Assembly (NCBI GenBank): GCA_000611775.1
Contig: KK106984.1
Span: forward strand, 154,364 to 218,363
Source: Umbilicaria muhlenbergii
Lineage: Eukaryota > Ascomycota > Lecanoromycetes > Umbilicariales > Umbilicariaceae
Direction: 5' to 3'
Length of the DNA stretch: 64,000 nucleotides
Both the position numbers and the translations under genes were made by a program. Positions 19,444 through 49,591 of the stretch are shown here, one piece after another. The notes beneath the pieces were generated by a model that saw only the letters and a list, made by a program, of their open reading frames with translations, made no database searches and was not told the DNA's origin. Each line of letters begins with the position of its first letter. Positions within the stretch are counted from its first letter, which is position 1.

Positions 19444-19843
19444 TCATACACTCATACAATCATAGAGGGAGGCTTTGTCACTGCCAAGAAAGCCAACTTT
19501 CGCCTCGACAGCTTTCTGAATGCTTGACTTAAAGCGTCTATCGTAAGTTGCCTTCTCATCCTCGGTCAAATCCGAGGTAGAGTAAGAGCTCCAGATCTCC
19601 CCTGATCCCGGTGAGGGTTTCATTGTCACAGAATCTCAGCAGTCCGCCATATTTGCTGCCGTGCCAGCTCTGCACCGGAGCCGCGAGGGCAGAAGGCTTC
19701 TTCGATTGAATGTGCAGGAGTTCAAGGGATTTAGTATCAAGGAACAAGTGGTAATAGATATTCCAAACGGCCGAATCATTTAGGCCCGCTTCGTAGTCAA
19801 GGAGAAGGGTGAGTAGCAAGATGTTGCGGGCTACAAACATCAT
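19444..19843 (-). pseudogene. DUF4470 family gene fragment, frameshifted
   Basis: Two overlapping minus-strand frames together resemble the core of DUF4470 proteins, a fungal family often joined to MYND zinc fingers. The first frame (from about 19843) reads ARNILLLTLLLDYEAG, then WNIYYHLFLD, SWHGSKYGGLLRFCD and LTGIR. The second reads IWSSYSTSDLTEDEKATYD and RRFKSSIQKAVEAK, which in the family follows directly. The change of frame is near 19605-19625, with no intron-like signals there. The fragment lacks the N-terminal zinc-finger part and most of the C-terminal part, so I read it as a broken, truncated copy. Function unknown. Confidence 0.65.
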
Positions 19844-19925
19844 CAGCTAGATGTTAAAGAAGGCTAAAAGGTATCCAGAACTAGTAACACCGACATTAAA
19901 CCAGCAATGTGCCACAAAACGGATA

Positions 19926-21053
19926 TCATATAACGTCCCTAGACGAGCTTTCTTCTAGCCCGTCAGACCTCCTACACACTTTCCGAAATAGCTCCATCAA
20001 CTTCTCCCCATCCTCTTTATCCACGGCCCCATTCATCAGCACGCCCGCGGCCGTTGAACTAAGCAACACTCCCCCTCCCGTCACCCCAGCCGCAATAATG
20101 CCATTCACCGCTGCGCCCCCCATAGCCGCACTCTGGCACCACGCAAACAGACTCCCCGCCTCCACAGCTCCTATCGATGCCTGCCACGCCGCAGCCGACG
20201 AGCCCGCTACAGGACCCAGTGCGCCGAACCCTGCAGCTCCAAGAACCGGCATGGCAACAGCTGCTGCGATCCCAACGGCGGCGCCGGCGCACTGGAACCC
20301 GAAGCGGAACGGGTGCGCGGAAATATAGGTGCCGGCGGCGCGGCTGAAGCGCTTGAACTTGCCTTCTGCACCACAATGGTCTGTGAGAGGGATGAGTTAG
20401 TTAGAGTTGTATTTCAGTGTCGGTGGCAGGGATAGATACAGGAGCGTGAATGGTCACTTACTCAGGATAGCGTAAAGCTCTCGCGCGAACTCGACACTCC
20501 AGCAACATAGGATGATGGGCCATTGCGGGAGATGCGTCACGTTCGGGAACTGTGCACGGCGGTACTGGGCCTGAACGTCGCTGTCCCTGAGGCTCTCGAA
20601 AGGTGCCTCGTTGGCGTAAATTTCGTAGATCAAGCTTCCGAGCGCAAAGAGCTCAGCGCGGCGGACTTTTTCATTGGGTTCCAGGTCGGTGATTGTCTCT
20701 GGGGGAATGCAGTATGGAGAGCGGTAAGTGGTTGGGGGGGGTTCAGGAGGTGTTTGATCGGAGGAGGGTTGGATTTCAACGGAGCCATCAAGAGAGAAGA
20801 GGAAATCGAGGGGGCGGATGTGTTGATAGTCAGTCCCGCTCTCGACAAACCGTTTCATGCAGTCGACCCAGGATTTGCGGGTTGAGTCACTTATGTCGGG
20901 GACGTTGCGGGGTCTCAATAAGGTCGGACTTTCGTCCTTCTCACCTGGTACCTTGATAAGAACGCGGCACAGCATCGTATCGTTGTCTTCGAATTCGGAA
21001 AACATATCGCAGTCTGAGCTGCCACCAGCGCCAGCTTCCCCCGGGGTTAGCAT
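19926..21053 (-). CDS. Pseudokinase-like protein with C-terminal IFI6/ISG12-type membrane domain
   Basis: Two exons, 21053-20462 and 20380-19926, with a GTAAGT donor and CACAG acceptor, give 348 aa. Residues 1-90 are acidic and family-specific (DMFSEFEDNDTMLCRVLI). Residues 90-195 look like the C-lobe of a protein kinase: DYQHIRPLDFLFSLDGSVEI sits where the catalytic loop would be but lacks HRD, TTYRSPYCIPPE resembles the P+1/APE region, and AELFALGSLIYEIYANEAPF resembles helix F. No glycine loop, VAIK lysine or DFG is visible, so catalysis is unlikely. After the intron comes a glycine/alanine-rich membrane domain (about residues 220-305) with GFGALGPVAGSSAAAWQ and VEAGSLFAWCQSAAMGG, typical of interferon-induced 6-16/ISG12 proteins, then a charged tail. 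The role is unknown; membrane-directed signalling is only a guess. Confidence 0.75.
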
Positions 21054-22125: not shown

Positions 22126-22996
22126 GGTCAATTGAATACCCTCACATATAGAAAATCGTCACACCTCCTGGTCTTACCCCCAGTTGAACTAGCTAAGCAT
22201 GAGATCCCCGGTGAGAAAATCCTCGGCGTCCTGTCCTCTGGATTCTCCTACTGTGCAGGGCAATATCTCGTTCGATGGAGAGAGTACTGGATGGGTGCTG
22301 CTCGTCTCACCGCGCCGGTATCGGTACAAAGGCGGAGGGAGACGAGGACGTTGTGAGGTCGGCGTTGAGCTCTGGGTACCCAGGCAATAATGTTGTGCTT
22401 GTTGTTGCAGTACTTGGTGGGTAGACGCGCCCTGGCTGACAGCGGGCTGTGCAGACAACACCTAAGATCTGGCAAGGTTAGATATCTTGTGCGCCGGCAT
22501 TTTCTTACTGCGTAGTCCAAGGAACTCCCTTATCTCACTATTACCAAGTCTATCAAATGGAGATAATCTCATGATCCCCGCCTCCGCAATACATATGTAT
22601 CTGGGCAGAAGCATCCTTGAGGAAGCTCCATATCCTGCGGAAAATAGGAATTGACTACTCGTATAACTTCGACTTCGTGCTTTGACCTATAAAACTCTCA
22701 CTTGCGCATAATGACTTGATAGTCGAGCATGCTCCACTGCCAAGCGAATGACTCAGTCACACAGCCCTGGCAGTCGATTGTGTTACTAGATGTCAAACAC
22801 GAAAATCCTCCTCTAACACTCGCAATTCTGTAGTACTCTCTAGTCCTCTCTTCATGTCGTACACATCATCGTCTGTCTAAGTGCTGTACAACAAGTTCAC
22901 CCTGCATCCGCACCCGTCCTTTTCCACTCTCTGTCCATTCCCTCGAACCCCCTCTGACCGTCTCAAACCTGCTCAAGCCTAACCCCAAGCGGCAAT
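22126..22996. other. Intergenic upstream of the RtcB gene
   Basis: No coding region supported. The last 200 bp before 22997 are pyrimidine-rich, as is common in fungal core promoters. Confidence 0.5.
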
Positions 22997-24808
22997 ATGC
23001 CCTCCACCCGCATAACCGTTGCTTCAAATTCCAAGCAGTCCCAAAAATCCCCTCTTCTCATCCCTTCTTCTACATCTCTAGATCCTTCTTCTTCAAATTC
23101 ATGTAGAGCGCTGGTCATTAAAACAGCCCAGTCAAAGCTACGTCTTAAAAAAGCGAATAGGGTTTTTGTTGCCGGTACTGGCCAGGAACTGCTGGACGAA
23201 AACGATTGGAAGAGTGTGCTTAAGGACGATGTGGTACTTTTGGTGTCGGCGGGAGAAGAGTATGTCGGAGCCAGGAAAGAGGAGACCTCTGTGAACGGTG
23301 GTGGCCAAGGTAGCGGTCCACTATCAACTCAAGGAAACCCCGACTGTCCAGTCAACATCCTCGCCCACAATGCCTACGTCGACCCCTTATCAATCACCCA
23401 AGTCGAAACCACAGCTCGCACCCTCCCGGGCATCATCCACGCCGTCGGCCAACCCGACCTCCACCCCGGCACCAAATTCCCCATCGGCGCCGTCTTCGTC
23501 TCCAAAGGCTGGATCCACCCACCCCTGATAGGCGGCGACATCGGCTGCGGCATGGCGTGGTACAAAACCACTCTCTCCCGCAACCAAGTCGACGGCGACA
23601 AAGGCCGCAAGATCGCCGAGAAGCTTCGAGGCCTGGAGGGTGCCTGGCGAACGCAGTCCGATCGAGAAGCATGGCTGAGCGAGCACGCAACGGAGTCGAG
23701 TAGTGCTGGCGAAGAATGGGACGCCTCTCTCGGTACTATCGGCGCAGGGAACCATTTCGCCGAACTCCAAATCATCGAGGAAGCCAACACATCCACCCTC
23801 CCCGGTCTCACCCGGCAGCAAGCCCTCCACACCGACGACGTGGTGCTGCTCGTGCACTCCGGCTCCCGTGGCTATGGCGGGGATATACTAAAACGCTACA
23901 CGGCCGACAACCGCACCAGCATGCACGAGAGCGAGGCCCTTGCCACAGAATACCTGACCGAACACGCCCGCGCCTGCGACTGGGCGACCAAGAACCGCGA
24001 CCTGATAGCTTTGAGGTTCCTAGCGTGTCTGGAGCCCGGGAACGAGGCGTGGGATCTCGGCATCAACGATCGGAACGCTGGCGCAACGGATGCGACCAAG
24101 GTTGTTGCGGCAAGAGAGAGTGTTAGGCAGAGGAAGGTGGTGGATATCTGGCACAACAACGTCGAGCGAGCGATGTGGCCGCCCGCCGCCCCTCCCCCCG
24201 CTGCCACCTCCACATCCTCCGCCCCCTCCGACCCTTCCCACCCACCAACTACGCCCCACCCCGTCTTCATCCACCGCAAAGGCGCAGCCCCAACCCTCCA
24301 CCCCCGCACCCACCTCCCCCTCGCATTCCTCCCCCTCCCCGGCTCCCGCGCCACCCCGACCCTCCTCCTCCACCCCCTGCACCCCCCCTCCACCGCCCAC
24401 GGCCTCACGAACGCCCTCTCCCTCGCCCACGGCGCCGGCCGCGCCATGTCCCGCGCCAAAGCCAGCACCGCCATCGCCCACAAATACGCCGGCAAAAGCG
24501 ACGACCTGCTCCGCGGGGACTACGTGCGCGCCGACAAGTGGGGGAATAAAAAGACCGCGGGTACGGGTGCGGGTGCGGCGGGAATGGGCGCGGAGACGGG
24601 GCGGCAAGGAGGGGCGGCGGAAACGTGGGGGAAGGGTTTGCGCGGCGGGACGTGGGTTGTTTGCGACGAGAAGGCGCTGGTGTGGGAAGAGGCGCCGGAG
24701 GCGTACAAGGACGTTTGGGCCGTGGGGGAGGATTTGGAGAGGGCGGGGGTGGCGGCGAGGAAGGGGTGGGCGAGGGGGGTGGTGAGTTACAAGGTTCGGT
24801 TTGATTAG
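22997..24808 (+). CDS. RtcB-family RNA ligase (fungal type)
   Basis: Intronless, 603 aa. RtcB enzymes join RNA 2',3'-cyclic phosphate (or 3'-phosphate) ends to 5'-OH ends using GTP and Mn2+. The signature blocks are all present in order: VGQPDLHPGTKFPIGAVF, GGDIGCGM (about residue 180; metal-binding Asp and Cys), GAGNHF (about 250), HSGSRG (about 287), FIHRKGA (about 425) and SLAHGAGR (about 478), whose His is the guanylylated residue in characterised RtcBs. The region between HSGSRG and HRKGA is atypical and includes a proline/serine-rich insert. Residues about 30-95 before the catalytic domain (ALVIKTAQSKLRLKKANRVF, then GEEYVG) look like a ubiquitin-like fold. Such proteins are often labelled release-factor-H-coupled RctB. 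The canonical fungal tRNA ligase is Trl1, so the substrate here is unknown. The 3' half is very GC-rich. Confidence 0.88.
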   Translation: MPSTRITVASNSKQSQKSPLLIPSSTSLDPSSSNSCRALVIKTAQSKLRLKKANRVFVAGTGQELLDENDWKSVLKDDVVLLVSAGEEYVGARKEETSVNGGGQGSGPLSTQGNPDCPVNILAHNAYVDPLSITQVETTARTLPGIIHAVGQPDLHPGTKFPIGAVFVSKGWIHPPLIGGDIGCGMAWYKTTLSRNQVDGDKGRKIAEKLRGLEGAWRTQSDREAWLSEHATESSSAGEEWDASLGTIGAGNHFAELQIIEEANTSTLPGLTRQQALHTDDVVLLVHSGSRGYGGDILKRYTADNRTSMHESEALATEYLTEHARACDWATKNRDLIALRFLACLEPGNEAWDLGINDRNAGATDATKVVAARESVRQRKVVDIWHNNVERAMWPPAAPPPAATSTSSAPSDPSHPPTTPHPVFIHRKGAAPTLHPRTHLPLAFLPLPGSRATPTLLLHPLHPPSTAHGLTNALSLAHGAGRAMSRAKASTAIAHKYAGKSDDLLRGDYVRADKWGNKKTAGTGAGAAGMGAETGRQGGAAETWGKGLRGGTWVVCDEKALVWEEAPEAYKDVWAVGEDLERAGVAARKGWARGVVSYKVRFD

Positions 24809-35287: not shown

Positions 35288-38200
35288 TTAGGCTGTAATA
35301 CTCGGTCCAAAGGGCTCGTCCCCATTCCCTTCTCTTTCCGCACCGATCTGGCCGTCATCGCCCCCCCCCTCCCCGTCCATACTAAACGACCTACTCTCGG
35401 CATCTTCGTCATACGACACCATCCGCAATAGCGGCGGCGTCGCAGGCGGCTCCACGTCTCGCTCCTTCTCCTCCTGCCTCGACAAGCTCTGCCTCGGCGT
35501 ACTGTACTGCCTCAAGGGCCTGCTACCCGCCGACGCCGGCCTCAACGCCGTTGGCATCCCCATTGGCGGCGGAGGCGTCTGCCGCAGAGTCGTACTCGGC
35601 GGCGTCATAAGACCCGACAGAAAGCCCTGTGCAGAAGGCGATGATTTCGACGGAGTCTCACTCGCCCCGAACGCGCCGTTGGCGATCTCAGATAGATTAC
35701 CAAAAGAGAGATCTCTGGCTTTGCGCCAATTGCCCCAGGCTGCTGCGGCAGCAAGAGGCAGTGCACGTGGTGATGAGGCCAGATTGGTGATACTGCTCAA
35801 GGACGGAAAAGTTTGGCCACCTGCCATGGCTCTGTCCTTTTCCTGCTGCTCCATTTGCAAGTTTGCTCTCAGTCTTATTGCGGCGTCTTTGACCGCTTCG
35901 CGGTCGTAGGTTGGTTGAGAAAGGGTGGCGATGATATCTTCCAAGTCATCATTGCGGACAGCTAAGAGTTCACGAAGCCAAGAGATCTCCATGTCGCGGT
36001 CTTTGATCTTAGTCGGAGCGTCTTTGTCAATTTGGGAAAGTTCGTGTTCAAGCTTCTCAATGCGCCCTTCACGTTCTTGGAGCTGTTCCTGAAGTACTAA
36101 AATTGATTCACGCAAGGCTTGCGGTGATATTTTCTCCGGAATGTCTGATCCTCTTGCAAATGGAATGGACGGGCGGGTAGAGGGAGGGCTTGCCGTGCTC
36201 CTTGCCGATTGAGCCGCTTGTGCAGCTGCGTGTGCTGCAGATTTGGTGATTTCGAGCTTTTCTTCGAGGTGACCGACCTTTTCCCGATAGTGCTCCATCT
36301 TCTCGTCCGACAGGGCGAGTCGGTCCTGAAGATGCGCCTCAGATCGCCGCTTATCTTCCAAAACATGTTTTAGTGCTCGTTCATGCTCAGCTCTCAAACC
36401 CTCCAAAGTCCGCTCATGGAAGCGATAGTGCTCTTGCAAAGCAGCCTCCCTCGCATCGGCAGCCTCTCGAAGTGCATCACTCCTTGACTCCGAGGCTTCT
36501 TCCAGCATAAGTTCGTGTCTTGCTCTAGCTGTATCGGCATCAAGCTTTGAGTTTTCACGTTGCTCCTGCAGCCTTGCTATTTCACTCTCGAAGTTTGCCC
36601 TGATGATGTTGACTTGATTATTGGCAGCCTCGATGTCGGCAGACATCGCTAATCTCGTGCGTTGGACTTCAATTTTTGCGGTTTCTCTGGCATCGTGGAA
36701 CTCACGCTCGAAGCGAGTGGCGGTCTCTTGGTGTTGGCGAGTTTCTTGTCTCAGCACAGCGATGATGTCTTCTAGCCTCGCGTTCGTCTTCTGTATCTCT
36801 TCTGCAGATATTCTCGACCGAATTGCATCTTTTTCTTGCACCTTAAGCCTTTCAATCTCTGCCTCGAGCTCTTCGCGTGTACGGGCTTCAACCTCAAGCC
36901 TTGCGCGAAGCAGCTCGTGCTTACCCTTGTGCTCCTCTTCGCGCCTGCGCCACATGGATTGATCTTGAGCTATATCTTGAGCCGCCAAGGCCATGTCCTC
37001 TTGTAGTCGATCGAACTTCGTTCGAAGTGCATGGCGACCTCTTATGCTATCTTCCATCTGAGCCTTGAGCGTGTTCACTGCGCGTCTGAGGTCTTTATTC
37101 TCGTTCTTGGATTCTTCGATCTCTGCACGCCATTGAATACTTGACAGCCTATACTCCTCCAACGTTCCCTCAAGTGCACCGTTCTTCTCTGACAGTTCAG
37201 ATACCGTTACCTCCAAGCTCTCTTGAGCGGCCTCGACGAGTGCTGTGTGCCTCAGTGCCTGTTGACGCTCATCGTGGAAAGCTCGGAGGCTGCGCTCCGT
37301 TTCTTCCGCAGACTCACGCTGTTGTGCAGCCTCTTGCTCGGCGTGTCGAAGCCGACGCTGACTATCAGCCAACGCGTCCTCCGCTGCTCTTCGAGCCTTG
37401 AGTTCGTCTTCGGCACGAGTATCAGCTATTGTGAGCATACTCTCCAGCCCAGAAATCTGGAGCTGAAGTTTCTCGGCCGCGGCGGAGCCTTGGCTCTGTG
37501 TAATTGGAACAGATCTGCCCCGCATCTGCTTCGCCACGGCTTCCTCAACGACGGTTTTCATATGACCAGATGAGGCGTTAGAGATTTGTTGAATTGATGC
37601 CTTTAGATCTGCGAGCTCCTTCATGAATTCCGACGCATCAGCAATTGGTGCAGCCACTTGCTGAGCAGCTATGGCTTCTAGAAGCGACGCCTTCAACTTA
37701 TCATACTTCCGCTCTCTCAAAGGAGACCGAACCCTTGGTTGGAACATTTCGTCAACGTCGTCCTCATCATCAGCGTCACTATGCTTGGTCTCTGCTGAGC
37801 GGCTTCTCTGTTCTCTAGTGCTGGCTACTCTGCTGGATAGAACCTCAACAGCATTTTGTATGGTTGCTAGTGTTTTCTCCAACGGATTTAATCGTTCTTG
37901 TACAACGCCACCAACAAGGTCATCAATGCGTCGGTCAAAGAATCTGCTTCTTGATTGTAACGTGGTCTCTTCAACTGACGAGACTGCATCGTCCCAATCA
38001 CTGATAGGAACATTGTCAGGACTATCCGGCCGGTGACTGCGTGATCTTATTTGGTTACCGACATGTTGCGGGCTGCCAGAGGGCCTGAAACGCTCATGAG
38101 AGCCTAGAGATTTGATCTCAGCAGTGTTAGCACTTTCCGACTCGTTGTTGACGGAATCATTGACGTCAGATCCATTGCCAGACAGATACTGATATTGCTG

Positions 38201-41200
38201 CTGATCCCGCTCCGGACTTGAAGAGAGTTCATCGGTTCTTAGATATGTAGCAGACAGCAGCTGATGGGCAGTACCAGACTGCTTAGGAAGAGAGCTTCGT
38301 CGTGGGCTGGAGCGTTGCCATGGGCTGCCGGTCCTCTCCACGCCAAGATCTGGGTCTTGCTCGTTGAGATGCTTCATCACAGCATCTATCTCTTGAAAAG
38401 ATGGCTCAAGATACGTAACACCCTCAACCTCCTCGCTCTCGGAGGCCGGTTCTTGTCCGAGAGAATCCAATTGGTCAGCTCGCAACGGCTCTAGTCTGCC
38501 GAATTGTGATCTGCCCCGCAGGCCCTGCTCCGGCTGGGCAGGACGAAAGGTATTAGCAGGGGATTTGAACTGGAATGGTGGCGAGGCTGCCAGCCCCGGC
38601 GTCCCATTCGAATAGCTCGATATGCCATCCATATTTGGCTTAGTTCCGTTTTCGAAAACATCAGTGAGTGTGGCTGAAGTAGCATATTGCTGCGGGGCAA
38701 AATCTGATTGTGTATCTTCCGTATCCTCTCGCAATGTTGAGCTGGCGGCTGCTTGCGCTGGCACGTAGGTTCTAGGCAGAGCCGAACTGAAGCTTGCAGC
38801 GTCCACAACATCCCCGAACTCATAGGGTTCCCAAGGTTTTCCATCTGCATCGACAGGTTCGTGGTCTCCTGTCAGGCTTGATGTATCTGAGGCTTGGTAA
38901 TCGTCAATCAATTCTTTCAACTGGTCCGCAGCCTTTTCAAGCGATGTCGCGCCCTCCTCATCAACTCTAAGAGGGGTGATGGAGTCTGATACGTTTGTTA
39001 CCGGGGATCCATCCATGCCAATAGTCGTGTCTAGCGTTGGTGTAGCAAACAGAGGCACTTGATCGCCCTCGTCATCGTTTCGTCGCATTCTCTTCTGTCG
39101 CCCATCTGCTTGCGTAATGCGGCCGGATTCATCTTCCTGGCCATCGGTGTCTCTGTCGACGGCCTTCTGATCCGAATCTGGCCGAATTATGGGTATAGCC
39201 TTTGACCTCCTTGCTGGCTTGATGATTTCAGGGAAGTTGATGTTTCCGAAGATTTTCTTCGCTCCGGTCTCTGAAGCTTCGGGGCCGAATTGCCCACTTC
39301 CACCTAGGTCGCTCGGTGCACTACCAGAAGGTACGAAGCTCGGCGCGTCGGTCTGAAAAGATAGTCCTCCTGATGAGAAGCTGAATTCACGAGTGGGAAC
39401 AGCGGATTTTCGGATGACTCCCGGCGTAAACGCAGGTGCGTCAACATTGAGAACACCAGCCAAAGCGCCAAACAAAGCGCCCGACGTATGCTTCGAGTGA
39501 CTAGTAGGTTGCATTGAGCTAAAACCCCCAGAGGCGTTCATTTCAGAGCTGGGTTTATTCCCGAGGAACGAAAAGACGGTTGACGTGGTAGCCATCCTGG
39601 GTTCGAATCTAAATTCTGGGGCTTGCACATTCAGCTTGGACAATGAAGATTTAGATCGATGTCCGGTTGTGAATGGTGTCTGTTGGCTTGCGCTCTGTAA
39701 CGGAGGTTCTGAAGTTCCGGCAATGCTTGGATTCGTATCCAGATCAGAGGCATGAGCCCTGAAGCCTCCCCCGGCAGCAGAATGCGACATGCCGCTAATC
39801 TCGCGACGTCCCCCTATAGGTTCGGAGACCTCATCATCTTCCTCGTCTAATTGCCTTCGTATAGAATCTTCGAGGTGATACTCAGCTTCATCAATCTCTT
39901 TCTGTAGGGTCTCGCTCAAATTGTGACGGTGGCCTTGTGGTGCTGGGCTGGCTATTACAGGCTGGCTAACATACCGCGGCAGTCTGCTCTCGTCGAGATC
40001 ATGAAAATCGGGAGTATTGATGAAAGACCTTGGGTTTAGCTGCTGTTGTTGCTGATGTTGCTGCAGGTGAAGCTGATCCTGCAGCTGTGCTTGCCGATTT
40101 CGCATCTTAGTGAGTAAGTCCTCTGTTCCCGGATGACCGTGGAACTGGCGAATCTCGGACACGGATGGCGATGATGGCGAGACCACACATCCTAGGCTTC
40201 GCGGCAGCTCCAGCGAAGGGTGCATCAAGTCCCTCGAGTCAGCTCGCGAAGCGAAAGGCTGCGCGGGAGGTAATGTGCCGTGCAGAGGAGGTGTGGATTG
40301 ATGTTGAGGTACATGAAACATCGGCCCAAAGGACTGTGTGCCATTGGAATAGAGCATTGCTTGCTTTGGATTGTGTATTTCTTCAGGGAATCCATTGTAA
40401 CGGAAATCAGGCGATTCCGTAGAAGCTAGCAAAGCGCCTGTGTGTGTGGACCCCCTGAAAGGTAGCGAGAATAAATTCAAGTGATGCATGCCCTGAGCAC
40501 TCCCGACTGAAGATGAAGCTAATGATGGCAACATGGGAAGTGCAAATGTCGGAGAAGAAGGTTGACGACCCGTGGAAGCCATCGGAGAGGGTGCCCTTGA
40601 TACTGGCTCTTCATCACTGAAACTAACTCCAAGAGCACGCAATCTTTCTTCGTTTAACCGCTTGACGTAGGTTTCCCACTCTTCGCGGTTGGGAATGCTG
40701 ACCCGGTATATCCCCTGCTGCCATTCCTGTTTTCCATCGTCAGGATCCGGGTATATTTCTCGGCTCTGTCCATCGGATGGAAGGCCACAAGGTTCTTTGT
40801 TGGTAGACGAGAGAACAAAGCCTTCGGTATTATATCCATTACGTTTCCAGTGAGCAAACATTTCAGCTACCTCTTCAGGTTTTAAGAAAGGATACCGACC
40901 CTCTTCAGTCCGACCATCTTCCAAAGGAAGCGCAATTATACATGCTTTCCCGCGCCAAATCACCTTCTTTTTGGATCTTTGGAATGACTGAGTAGAACTG
41001 ATCGAGGGCCTAGATGGAGTTGACATGGGACTGGGCACATTGCTCGCCATAATCAACACAGGCTCTTCTGATGCTGTGCGCTCAAAGCGTGGCCGAGGTG
41101 GGGGTAACGGCTTGTCTGTTCGAGGCCCACTTTCAGTTGATACACAGGATGATGGAGAAGGCGAGTTGGTGGATCTCGTTCCAGCCATTTTAGTTGGGAC

Positions 41201-42205
41201 TGAGATGCGACCTAGCGTGTTACGGTCTTCCTCCCAGATCTCGGGCCGCCTGACCGTTGCGTCGCTGACCTGAAACCTGTGTCGCCTTGGGTTACTTGGA
41301 CTGGTAATCGAAATTAGCTCCACGGGCACTCTTTGATCCGCAACCGAACTGCGTCGCTCGGAATTTTGCTTCTGCTTGATCCCTTCTGCGGATTCCGACC
41401 AGCTCTCTCCTCGTTCTAGTGGTTCAAGATCAGTCGAGCCGACAGATTGTTTGTCCGACTCGTCACTCCACCAATTGCCCCTTTCAGAAACTCTGTGTCG
41501 GGTAAGATTGTTCTTAAGCCAGTCCTCAGTGAAGCCGTATCTTGGTCTTCGCTCCTCTCTGTTCCTGGCCGTACCGGATAGTGGACGCCTTAGCGTTCTG
41601 GAAGCGTAGAAGCCAGCTTGATCTCGTCCGTGAGTGGTAGCACAAGCCGGCGCGGACCCAGGCGTTGTATTTGGTGCCTTGCTAGACCTCCTGTGAAGTG
41701 TTGGTGAACCGGCCGTAGAAACTTCGCTAGAGACTCGTTGGTGATACAAATTCCCAGATGTCGCTTGAAACGGCGAGTGATAGTCGTACGGGGATCCCCA
41801 TAGGGCCGTATAGTACGCGCTACTATCAGTCCTCGGATGAGATAGCGGCGGCTCTGGGGTTTGCGGGTCAACTTCCCAGGTTGCAGGTCCGGGCAGACGA
41901 GGTAGAGTAGGAGACAGAGAGGCAAAGGCCTGGCTTGGTGAGGGTGCAGTCCATACACCCCAGGACCTTGCGTGAGAGCCCCGGCCTGCCTCGGTTCTAG
42001 CAAGACTCGATGGAGTATCAGCTTCGATCTGTCCGGACGATAAATCCGGCGGTGAACGAGGGAAAGCGATAGGAGTTGGGTTGAATCCTAAAAGAGAATG
42101 GATTAGCTTGTATCTGTGTCTGGAACGAGAAATAGACTGAATACCTTCCACCTCGGCGGTCTCCAGCAGGAGATTGCTCCCTAATAGTTGGCTGTACCTG
42201 TACAC
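35288..42205 (-). CDS. Very large fungal coiled-coil protein, N-terminus uncertain
   Basis: An open frame of about 2,300 codons. One likely 57-bp intron (42144-42088, GTATTC..TTTTAG) near the start keeps the frame. No in-frame ATG is near the 5' end (the frame begins with a GTG at 42205), so a start exon farther upstream is missing from this model. Layout: about 1-400 disordered and Ser/Pro-rich with a YYTALWGSPYDYHSP motif; about 410-540 a compact conserved-looking block (KKVIWRGKACIIALPLEDGR, FLKPEEVAEMFAHWKRNGYN, WETYVKRLNEERLRALGVSF); about 560-1490 disordered with a short glutamine run; about 1500-2150 nearly continuous heptad-rich coiled coil (for example EARTREELEAEIERLKVQEK); then a Ser/Pro-rich tail. 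Such proteins are sometimes labelled myosin-like, but no motor domain is present. A cytoskeletal, spindle-pole or septal scaffold is a guess. Confidence 0.8.
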   Translation of the reverse strand: MYRYSQLLGSNLLLETAEVEGIQSISRSRHRYKLIHSLLGFNPTPIAFPRSPPDLSSGQIEADTPSSLARTEAGRGSHARSWGVWTAPSPSQAFASLSPTLPRLPGPATWEVDPQTPEPPLSHPRTDSSAYYTALWGSPYDYHSPFQATSGNLYHQRVSSEVSTAGSPTLHRRSSKAPNTTPGSAPACATTHGRDQAGFYASRTLRRPLSGTARNREERRPRYGFTEDWLKNNLTRHRVSERGNWWSDESDKQSVGSTDLEPLERGESWSESAEGIKQKQNSERRSSVADQRVPVELISITSPSNPRRHRFQVSDATVRRPEIWEEDRNTLGRISVPTKMAGTRSTNSPSPSSCVSTESGPRTDKPLPPPRPRFERTASEEPVLIMASNVPSPMSTPSRPSISSTQSFQRSKKKVIWRGKACIIALPLEDGRTEEGRYPFLKPEEVAEMFAHWKRNGYNTEGFVLSSTNKEPCGLPSDGQSREIYPDPDDGKQEWQQGIYRVSIPNREEWETYVKRLNEERLRALGVSFSDEEPVSRAPSPMASTGRQPSSPTFALPMLPSLASSSVGSAQGMHHLNLFSLPFRGSTHTGALLASTESPDFRYNGFPEEIHNPKQAMLYSNGTQSFGPMFHVPQHQSTPPLHGTLPPAQPFASRADSRDLMHPSLELPRSLGCVVSPSSPSVSEIRQFHGHPGTEDLLTKMRNRQAQLQDQLHLQQHQQQQQLNPRSFINTPDFHDLDESRLPRYVSQPVIASPAPQGHRHNLSETLQKEIDEAEYHLEDSIRRQLDEEDDEVSEPIGGRREISGMSHSAAGGGFRAHASDLDTNPSIAGTSEPPLQSASQQTPFTTGHRSKSSLSKLNVQAPEFRFEPRMATTSTVFSFLGNKPSSEMNASGGFSSMQPTSHSKHTSGALFGALAGVLNVDAPAFTPGVIRKSAVPTREFSFSSGGLSFQTDAPSFVPSGSAPSDLGGSGQFGPEASETGAKKIFGNINFPEIIKPARRSKAIPIIRPDSDQKAVDRDTDGQEDESGRITQADGRQKRMRRNDDEGDQVPLFATPTLDTTIGMDGSPVTNVSDSITPLRVDEEGATSLEKAADQLKELIDDYQASDTSSLTGDHEPVDADGKPWEPYEFGDVVDAASFSSALPRTYVPAQAAASSTLREDTEDTQSDFAPQQYATSATLTDVFENGTKPNMDGISSYSNGTPGLAASPPFQFKSPANTFRPAQPEQGLRGRSQFGRLEPLRADQLDSLGQEPASESEEVEGVTYLEPSFQEIDAVMKHLNEQDPDLGVERTGSPWQRSSPRRSSLPKQSGTAHQLLSATYLRTDELSSSPERDQQQYQYLSGNGSDVNDSVNNESESANTAEIKSLGSHERFRPSGSPQHVGNQIRSRSHRPDSPDNVPISDWDDAVSSVEETTLQSRSRFFDRRIDDLVGGVVQERLNPLEKTLATIQNAVEVLSSRVASTREQRSRSAETKHSDADDEDDVDEMFQPRVRSPLRERKYDKLKASLLEAIAAQQVAAPIADASEFMKELADLKASIQQISNASSGHMKTVVEEAVAKQMRGRSVPITQSQGSAAAEKLQLQISGLESMLTIADTRAEDELKARRAAEDALADSQRRLRHAEQEAAQQRESAEETERSLRAFHDERQQALRHTALVEAAQESLEVTVSELSEKNGALEGTLEEYRLSSIQWRAEIEESKNENKDLRRAVNTLKAQMEDSIRGRHALRTKFDRLQEDMALAAQDIAQDQSMWRRREEEHKGKHELLRARLEVEARTREELEAEIERLKVQEKDAIRSRISAEEIQKTNARLEDIIAVLRQETRQHQETATRFEREFHDARETAKIEVQRTRLAMSADIEAANNQVNIIRANFESEIARLQEQRENSKLDADTARARHELMLEEASESRSDALREAADAREAALQEHYRFHERTLEGLRAEHERALKHVLEDKRRSEAHLQDRLALSDEKMEHYREKVGHLEEKLEITKSAAHAAAQAAQSARSTASPPSTRPSIPFARGSDIPEKISPQALRESILVLQEQLQEREGRIEKLEHELSQIDKDAPTKIKDRDMEISWLRELLAVRNDDLEDIIATLSQPTYDREAVKDAAIRLRANLQMEQQEKDRAMAGGQTFPSLSSITNLASSPRALPLAAAAAWGNWRKARDLSFGNLSEIANGAFGASETPSKSSPSAQGFLSGLMTPPSTTLRQTPPPPMGMPTALRPASAGSRPLRQYSTPRQSLSRQEEKERDVEPPATPPLLRMVSYDEDAESRSFSMDGEGGGDDGQIGAEREGNGDEPFGPSITA

Positions 42206-42502
42206 TCGACTTGAAGATGGTGTGCAGCGTGGGTCTCTCTACAAGAGGTGACGTAGACAGAGCGCGTTTTTATAGCAGAAGAGACAGCAAGACCAAAGGG
42301 ATCAAAAATATGGTACAAGCACCTCAGCATTGTCGTTTGGACCAGCCGATAGCATAGCAGTAGGCAATTACCTTGCTTCCAAGTGCTCAGGGAAGTGTTA
42401 ATGTTGATGTTGGAAAGCTTCTTGACCGAGTCGCGAAGCTCGTTTGTCGTGTTGGTTCCTCCTATTCATTGGTGCGACAGGGATTCCGGGATGGAAGCTC
42501 CG

Positions 42503-49243: not shown

Positions 49244-49591
49244 ATGGCTCAGTACATAGAAACAGCCGCAAACCTTGCCTACACCGCTGGGGCCGCCACT
49301 GTCAACTATGTCTCTGCACACCCTGTCCAAGCCGGCGTATCTGCAGTTAGCGTCGGTCTTACACCAGTTCTCGGCCCAGGATGGCTCGTCGCTCTGCCTC
49401 TGAAAGCTGTAGGATTTGGCGCCGCGGGCGTGGGAGGTGGTAAGTAGACCTACTGTGAACAGAAGATTAAAGGGCTGATACGCCCAGGTACCCTTGCCGC
49501 TTGGTGGCAGGCTACTGCGTACGGGGGTTCTGTGCCGGCGGGCAGTGTTTTTGCGGTTTTGCAGGCGGCCGGAGCGACGATGGGGATTTGA
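49244..49591 (+). CDS. Small IFI6/ISG12-like glycine-rich membrane protein
   Basis: Exons 49244-49439 and 49488-49591 give 99 aa. It consists almost entirely of hydrophobic Gly/Ala-rich segments: SAHPVQAGVSAVSVGLTPVL, GPGWLVALPLKAVGFGAAGV, and GTLAAWWQATAYGG, then SVPAGSVFAVLQAAGATMG. This pattern matches the interferon-induced 6-16/27 (ISG12) family, whose animal members sit in mitochondrial or ER membranes and affect apoptosis. The core GFGA-x-G, then AAxWQ, then AGS-[VL]-FA is shared with the C-terminal domain of the pseudokinase fusion at 19926-21053. In fungi the role is unknown. The ATG at 49244 is the first in frame. Confidence 0.75.

Follow-up and report, generated by a model that had tools for sequence, protein, structure and literature searches.

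The window analysed here is a 64,000-nucleotide stretch of the Umbilicaria muhlenbergii genome (C4:154364-218363; contig KK106984.1). At 19926..21053 it contains a gene whose predicted product joins a degenerate protein kinase C-lobe to an Ifi-6-16 (ISG12) domain. We place this gene on the minus strand, a point missing from the initial annotation, with two exons encoding a product of 348 amino acids (aa). Exon 1 (20462..21053) starts with an ATG at 21053, encodes aa 1-197 and ends one base into codon 198. Exon 2 (19926..20380) supplies the rest of codon 198 and runs to aa 348 and the stop codon. The intron between them (20381..20461; 81 nt, phase 1) has consensus splice signals, with a GTAAGT donor, the branch site CTAACTAAC and a CAG acceptor, and the reading frame is kept across the junction.

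Only the annotated frame, of the six, is free of stop codons in either exon. The codon-usage score was also highest for the annotated frames (+0.117 in exon 1 and +0.092 in exon 2); the runner-up, at +0.055, was a plus-strand frame of exon 2 containing one stop. Residues 1-50, at the start of exon 1, are predicted to be disordered. With open exons, a consensus intron and coding-like codon usage, the initial proposal of a two-exon frame uniting kinase C-lobe-like and IFI6-like parts is borne out. As judged from the sequence, the fusion looks real, and the observation is now somewhat stronger than it could be made at first.

The two halves of the predicted protein

The N-terminal half contains a degenerate kinase C-lobe (aa 56-197; 20463..20888, minus strand, as for all features of the gene), recognised by profile, by hhalign and in the predicted fold, where helices E, F, G, H and I are modelled. 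Alignment places YQH at the HRD position (aa 76-78; 20820..20828), with His for the catalytic Asp, and PSS at the DFG position (aa 96-98; 20760..20768). The columns of the HRD Asp, the catalytic-loop Asn and the DFG Asp hold H78, D83 and P96. At the APE position, located by alignment and profile, PPE (aa 117-119; 20697..20705) retains the Pro and Glu. The helix F core, AELFALGSLIYEI (aa 133-145; 20619..20657), was located by alignment and in the predicted structure. The initial annotation had described this region as lacking HRD, DFG and N-lobe motifs. The N-lobe is indeed absent and the catalytic residues are lost, but degenerate loops (aa 76-83 and 93-98 in the alignment) still represent the HRD and DFG segments.

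For the N-lobe (Gly loop, VAIK Lys), a profile of 10 kinases gave at best 5.2 bits (E 2.1) against the 1916 open reading frames (ORFs) of the window. A hidden upstream N-lobe exon was considered and rejected, as the N-lobe profile matched nothing upstream of the gene on its own strand. Because the N-lobe and the HRD and DFG residues are gone, an ordinary kinase is impossible.

A profile built from 26 kinases of the same genome scored the C-lobe half at 19.8 bits, ranking it first among the window ORFs (next best 5.0 bits). None of 2000 shuffled sequences exceeded 2.3 bits with this profile (1095 of the 2000 received a score). Alignment to kinases by hhalign gave 95.7% over aa 75-188, and kinase C-lobes matched the predicted structure of the N-terminal half. 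Profile and model thus support C-lobe homology and a protein kinase C-lobe fold for this half. Note that exon 1 also gave a weak PADLOC match to PD-T4-6 (best E 0.00068), which we read as generic kinase similarity; PADLOC returned no match for exon 2.

The C-terminal half contains the Ifi-6-16 (ISG12) domain PF06140 (aa 231-302; 20067..20282), at 33.4 bits against a cut-off of 29.1. Exon 2 by itself scored 36.0 bits, and ten of ten shuffled versions of the same composition were without any Pfam match. Two hydrophobic stretches, Gly/Ala-rich in character, span about aa 222-257 and 286-311 (19-residue hydropathy means >1.4). The half shares 51% identity (44/86 aa) with an Ifi copy located on contig C6, which itself passes the PF06140 cut-off at 30.7 bits. 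Its sole PDB profile match, Adhesin P1 (E 0.46), was taken as chance. In conclusion, the fusion protein is a pseudokinase without an N-lobe joined to an ISG12-type hydrophobic module.

Relatives in the genome and neighbouring genes

The genome searched comprises 34.8 Mb in 7 contigs, and its intron signals and gene content read as fungal. The kinases closest to the C-lobe are encoded at C6:1899152-1900078 (33.6 bits) and C1:9310108-9310824 (30.6 bits); the next scored 19.1 and 18.4 bits. Both share an FP[DN]VT...CW segment with the C-lobe half and retain an N-lobe together with HCD/DFG or HGD/DFA. No Ifi match was found within about 8 and 9.5 kb around them.

Four places came up in a PF06140 scan of the genome; this count is a lower bound, since the scan overlooked the window gene itself. 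Two Ifi copies on C6, ~2.4 kb apart, are of the same subtype as the Ifi domain of the fusion. One (C6:1998813-1999173; L012 4314-4653) is a frameshifted relic with two frames overlapping at the break; the other (C6:2001244-2001702; L012 6745-7206) is open and has no ATG before the domain. Just upstream of the latter lies a CTAAC/AG signal resembling an intron end, and a 5' exon may therefore be out of view. The degraded copy is adjoined by a BTB_2 (KCTD-type) gene (L012 3484-4185, minus strand; 45.9 bits). No kinase-like ORF was found around the two copies (C6:1985000-2013900). As no kinase lies near these copies and no Ifi domain near the two closest kinases, the kinase/Ifi fusion is seen once in this genome, in searches that score the best candidates only. 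No relatives were confirmed in viral contigs (two scans) or in contigs of prokaryote genomes.

A related, separate ISG12 gene lies in the window ~28 kb from the fusion. It stands alone and consists of two exons (49244..49439 and 49488..49591, plus strand) encoding 99 aa, with a PF06140 score of 40.2 bits for the joined exons.

The neighbour scan covered 20 window ORFs, 18 from a list of 46 and two shorter ones, and recognised among others Arf, RtcB, DUF3405, a CLC channel, a P450 and a ClpB-like ATPase. None of the 20 was recognised as an NLR or HET gene; amyloid motifs fall outside this search. A weak NACHT match in the ClpB-like ORF (24.4 bits, cut-off 26.7) was attributed to a P-loop common to both. 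Immediately downstream of the fusion is a DUF4470-like fragment (19559-19846, minus strand; 21.1 bits, cut-off 25) that may be a gene relic. Two genes away from the fusion, in a genome of fungal type, lies an RtcB-like RNA ligase (22958-24805, plus strand; 158 bits). Elsewhere in the window, an unbroken ORF of 2316 aa (35291-42238, minus strand) has a short PAM2 motif as its only Pfam match.

Function or decay of the fusion

Tentatively, we propose that this fungal gene encodes a membrane-tethered, non-catalytic kinase remnant that docks a partner. By analogy with animal IFI6/ISG12, the ISG12 module would insert into an intracellular membrane, that of the mitochondrion or endoplasmic reticulum. 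The C-lobe would bind the partner via its retained substrate-docking side, helices F to I; the partner might be either of the related kinases on C6 and C1, which look catalytic. Such binding could place or restrain the membrane module, with death, stress signalling or a decoy effect as candidate outcomes. The kinase remnant may plausibly act as a sensor for the membrane module or position it. A cell-death role, suggested by MLKL and fungal HELL-kinase proteins, is only a guess. The initial annotation had likened the architecture to fungal cell-death and self/non-self systems. This system-level claim is unsupported so far: it draws on architectural analogy, the scan of 20 neighbouring ORFs recognised no NLR or HET gene, and the fusion was found once in this genome.

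Several results speak against the proposal of a partner-docking pseudokinase fusion. Pkinase (PF00069; aa 108-210, 16.8 bits, E 0.0046) stays under its Pfam cut-off of 31.7. The N-terminal half models as a kinase C-lobe, from an alignment that contains kinases and leans the model to that fold; the model of the ISG12 half is poor (predicted local distance difference test score, pLDDT, 44.0). The nearest kinase is not settled by the tree (26 rows, 200 bootstrap trees): the fusion and the two closest kinases group in 54% of bootstraps, and the drawn tree pairs exon 1 weakly (38/53) with another kinase. Finally, the pseudokinase branch is very long (4.63 versus a median of 0.82), which also suits decay.

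Because of this branch length, decay is a serious rival, only slightly less probable than the docking proposal. A piece of a duplicated kinase would have landed upstream of an Ifi gene and been spliced on, giving a product of little or no function that is being lost. The disappearance of the entire N-lobe and the catalytic residues is consistent with this, as are the two same-subtype Ifi copies (one a frameshifted relic, one without ATG), the DUF4470-like fragment downstream and the occurrence of the fusion once in the genome. In contrast, 348 codons are open across both exons with clean splice sites, codon usage is coding-like in both, and PPE and helix F, which are structural positions, are retained. 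An error in the gene model appears very improbable. It would split the locus into two transcripts, a short pseudokinase and an ISG12-like protein whose separate first exon would have escaped detection. Exon 1 continued into the intron does meet a stop two codons on (ending after 'SK'), so that a separate exon 1 product could be made, and a stand-alone ISG12 gene exists elsewhere in the window. However, the frame is kept by a consensus donor, branch site and acceptor. Furthermore, exon 2 encodes no Met until halfway through its first hydrophobic stretch, leaving the exon no usable start codon and making it unlikely to stand alone; the stand-alone gene, by contrast, has an ATG a little ahead of the corresponding HP segment. 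In the joined protein, the Pfam kinase match extends across the exon junction to aa 210, and the predicted model places kinase helix I at the end of exon 1.

A single-chain executioner resembling MLKL, in which the pseudokinase restrains ISG12 until a signal frees it to permeabilise the membrane and kill the cell, is unlikely. The likeness to MLKL lies in the pairing of a pseudokinase with a membrane-acting helical module and in the C-lobe fold; the missing N-lobe, the reversed order and the different membrane module set the fusion apart. Between function and decay, the decisive point is conservation, and the present data come from one fungal genome. Should the fusion prove conserved and expressed, its kinase part would offer a handle on the control of fungal ISG12-like proteins and open the way to a direct test of whether IFI6/ISG12 modules take part in membrane-linked death in organisms other than animals. 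A solitary gene in decay would be of little importance.

Comparison with known systems

Among the open-access literature matches listed, none describes a kinase/Ifi-6-16 fusion; subscription papers and domain-architecture databases, where the architecture may have been recorded already, lie outside this search. The accession PF06140 occurred in one paper of the open-access literature searched, PMC10051545, a table of which lists an Ifi-6-16 domain together with Ferritin_2 in a fungal protein. ISG12, IFI6 and interferon are absent from a fungal cell-death review (PMC12881547), and neither ISG12 nor IFI6 appears in PMC10197012. We provisionally regard the fusion as a new combination of known parts, subject to its conservation and to what architecture databases contain.

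With the Ifi-6-16/ISG12 family (PF06140: IFI6, IFI27) the fusion shares a domain over the curated cut-off and Gly/Ala-rich hydrophobic stretches. Animal members are small stand-alone proteins, whereas here the domain lies C-terminal to a kinase C-lobe within a fused protein of 348 aa. The fusion also differs from its two closest kinases in having an Ifi domain and no N-lobe. The pseudokinase KSR2 is the best PDB sequence match (aa 117-189; weak, E 0.012); unlike the fusion, KSR2 and other pseudokinases have full two-lobed kinase domains.

Fungal proteins that combine HELL domains with kinases or pseudokinases are mentioned in PMC12881547. The fusion resembles these HELL/HeLo proteins in being fungal and in combining a kinase-like part with a membrane-targeting domain; no Pfam match to a four-helix bundle (4HB), HeLo or HELL domain was found in it at E up to 10. 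Compared with MLKL, the necroptosis executioner, it carries ISG12 in place of the four-helix bundle. A second, independently evolved design of the MLKL type, in which a fungal pseudokinase C-lobe would control an ISG12-type membrane module and thereby tie the IFI6/ISG12 family to cell death under kinase control outside animals, seems quite unlikely.
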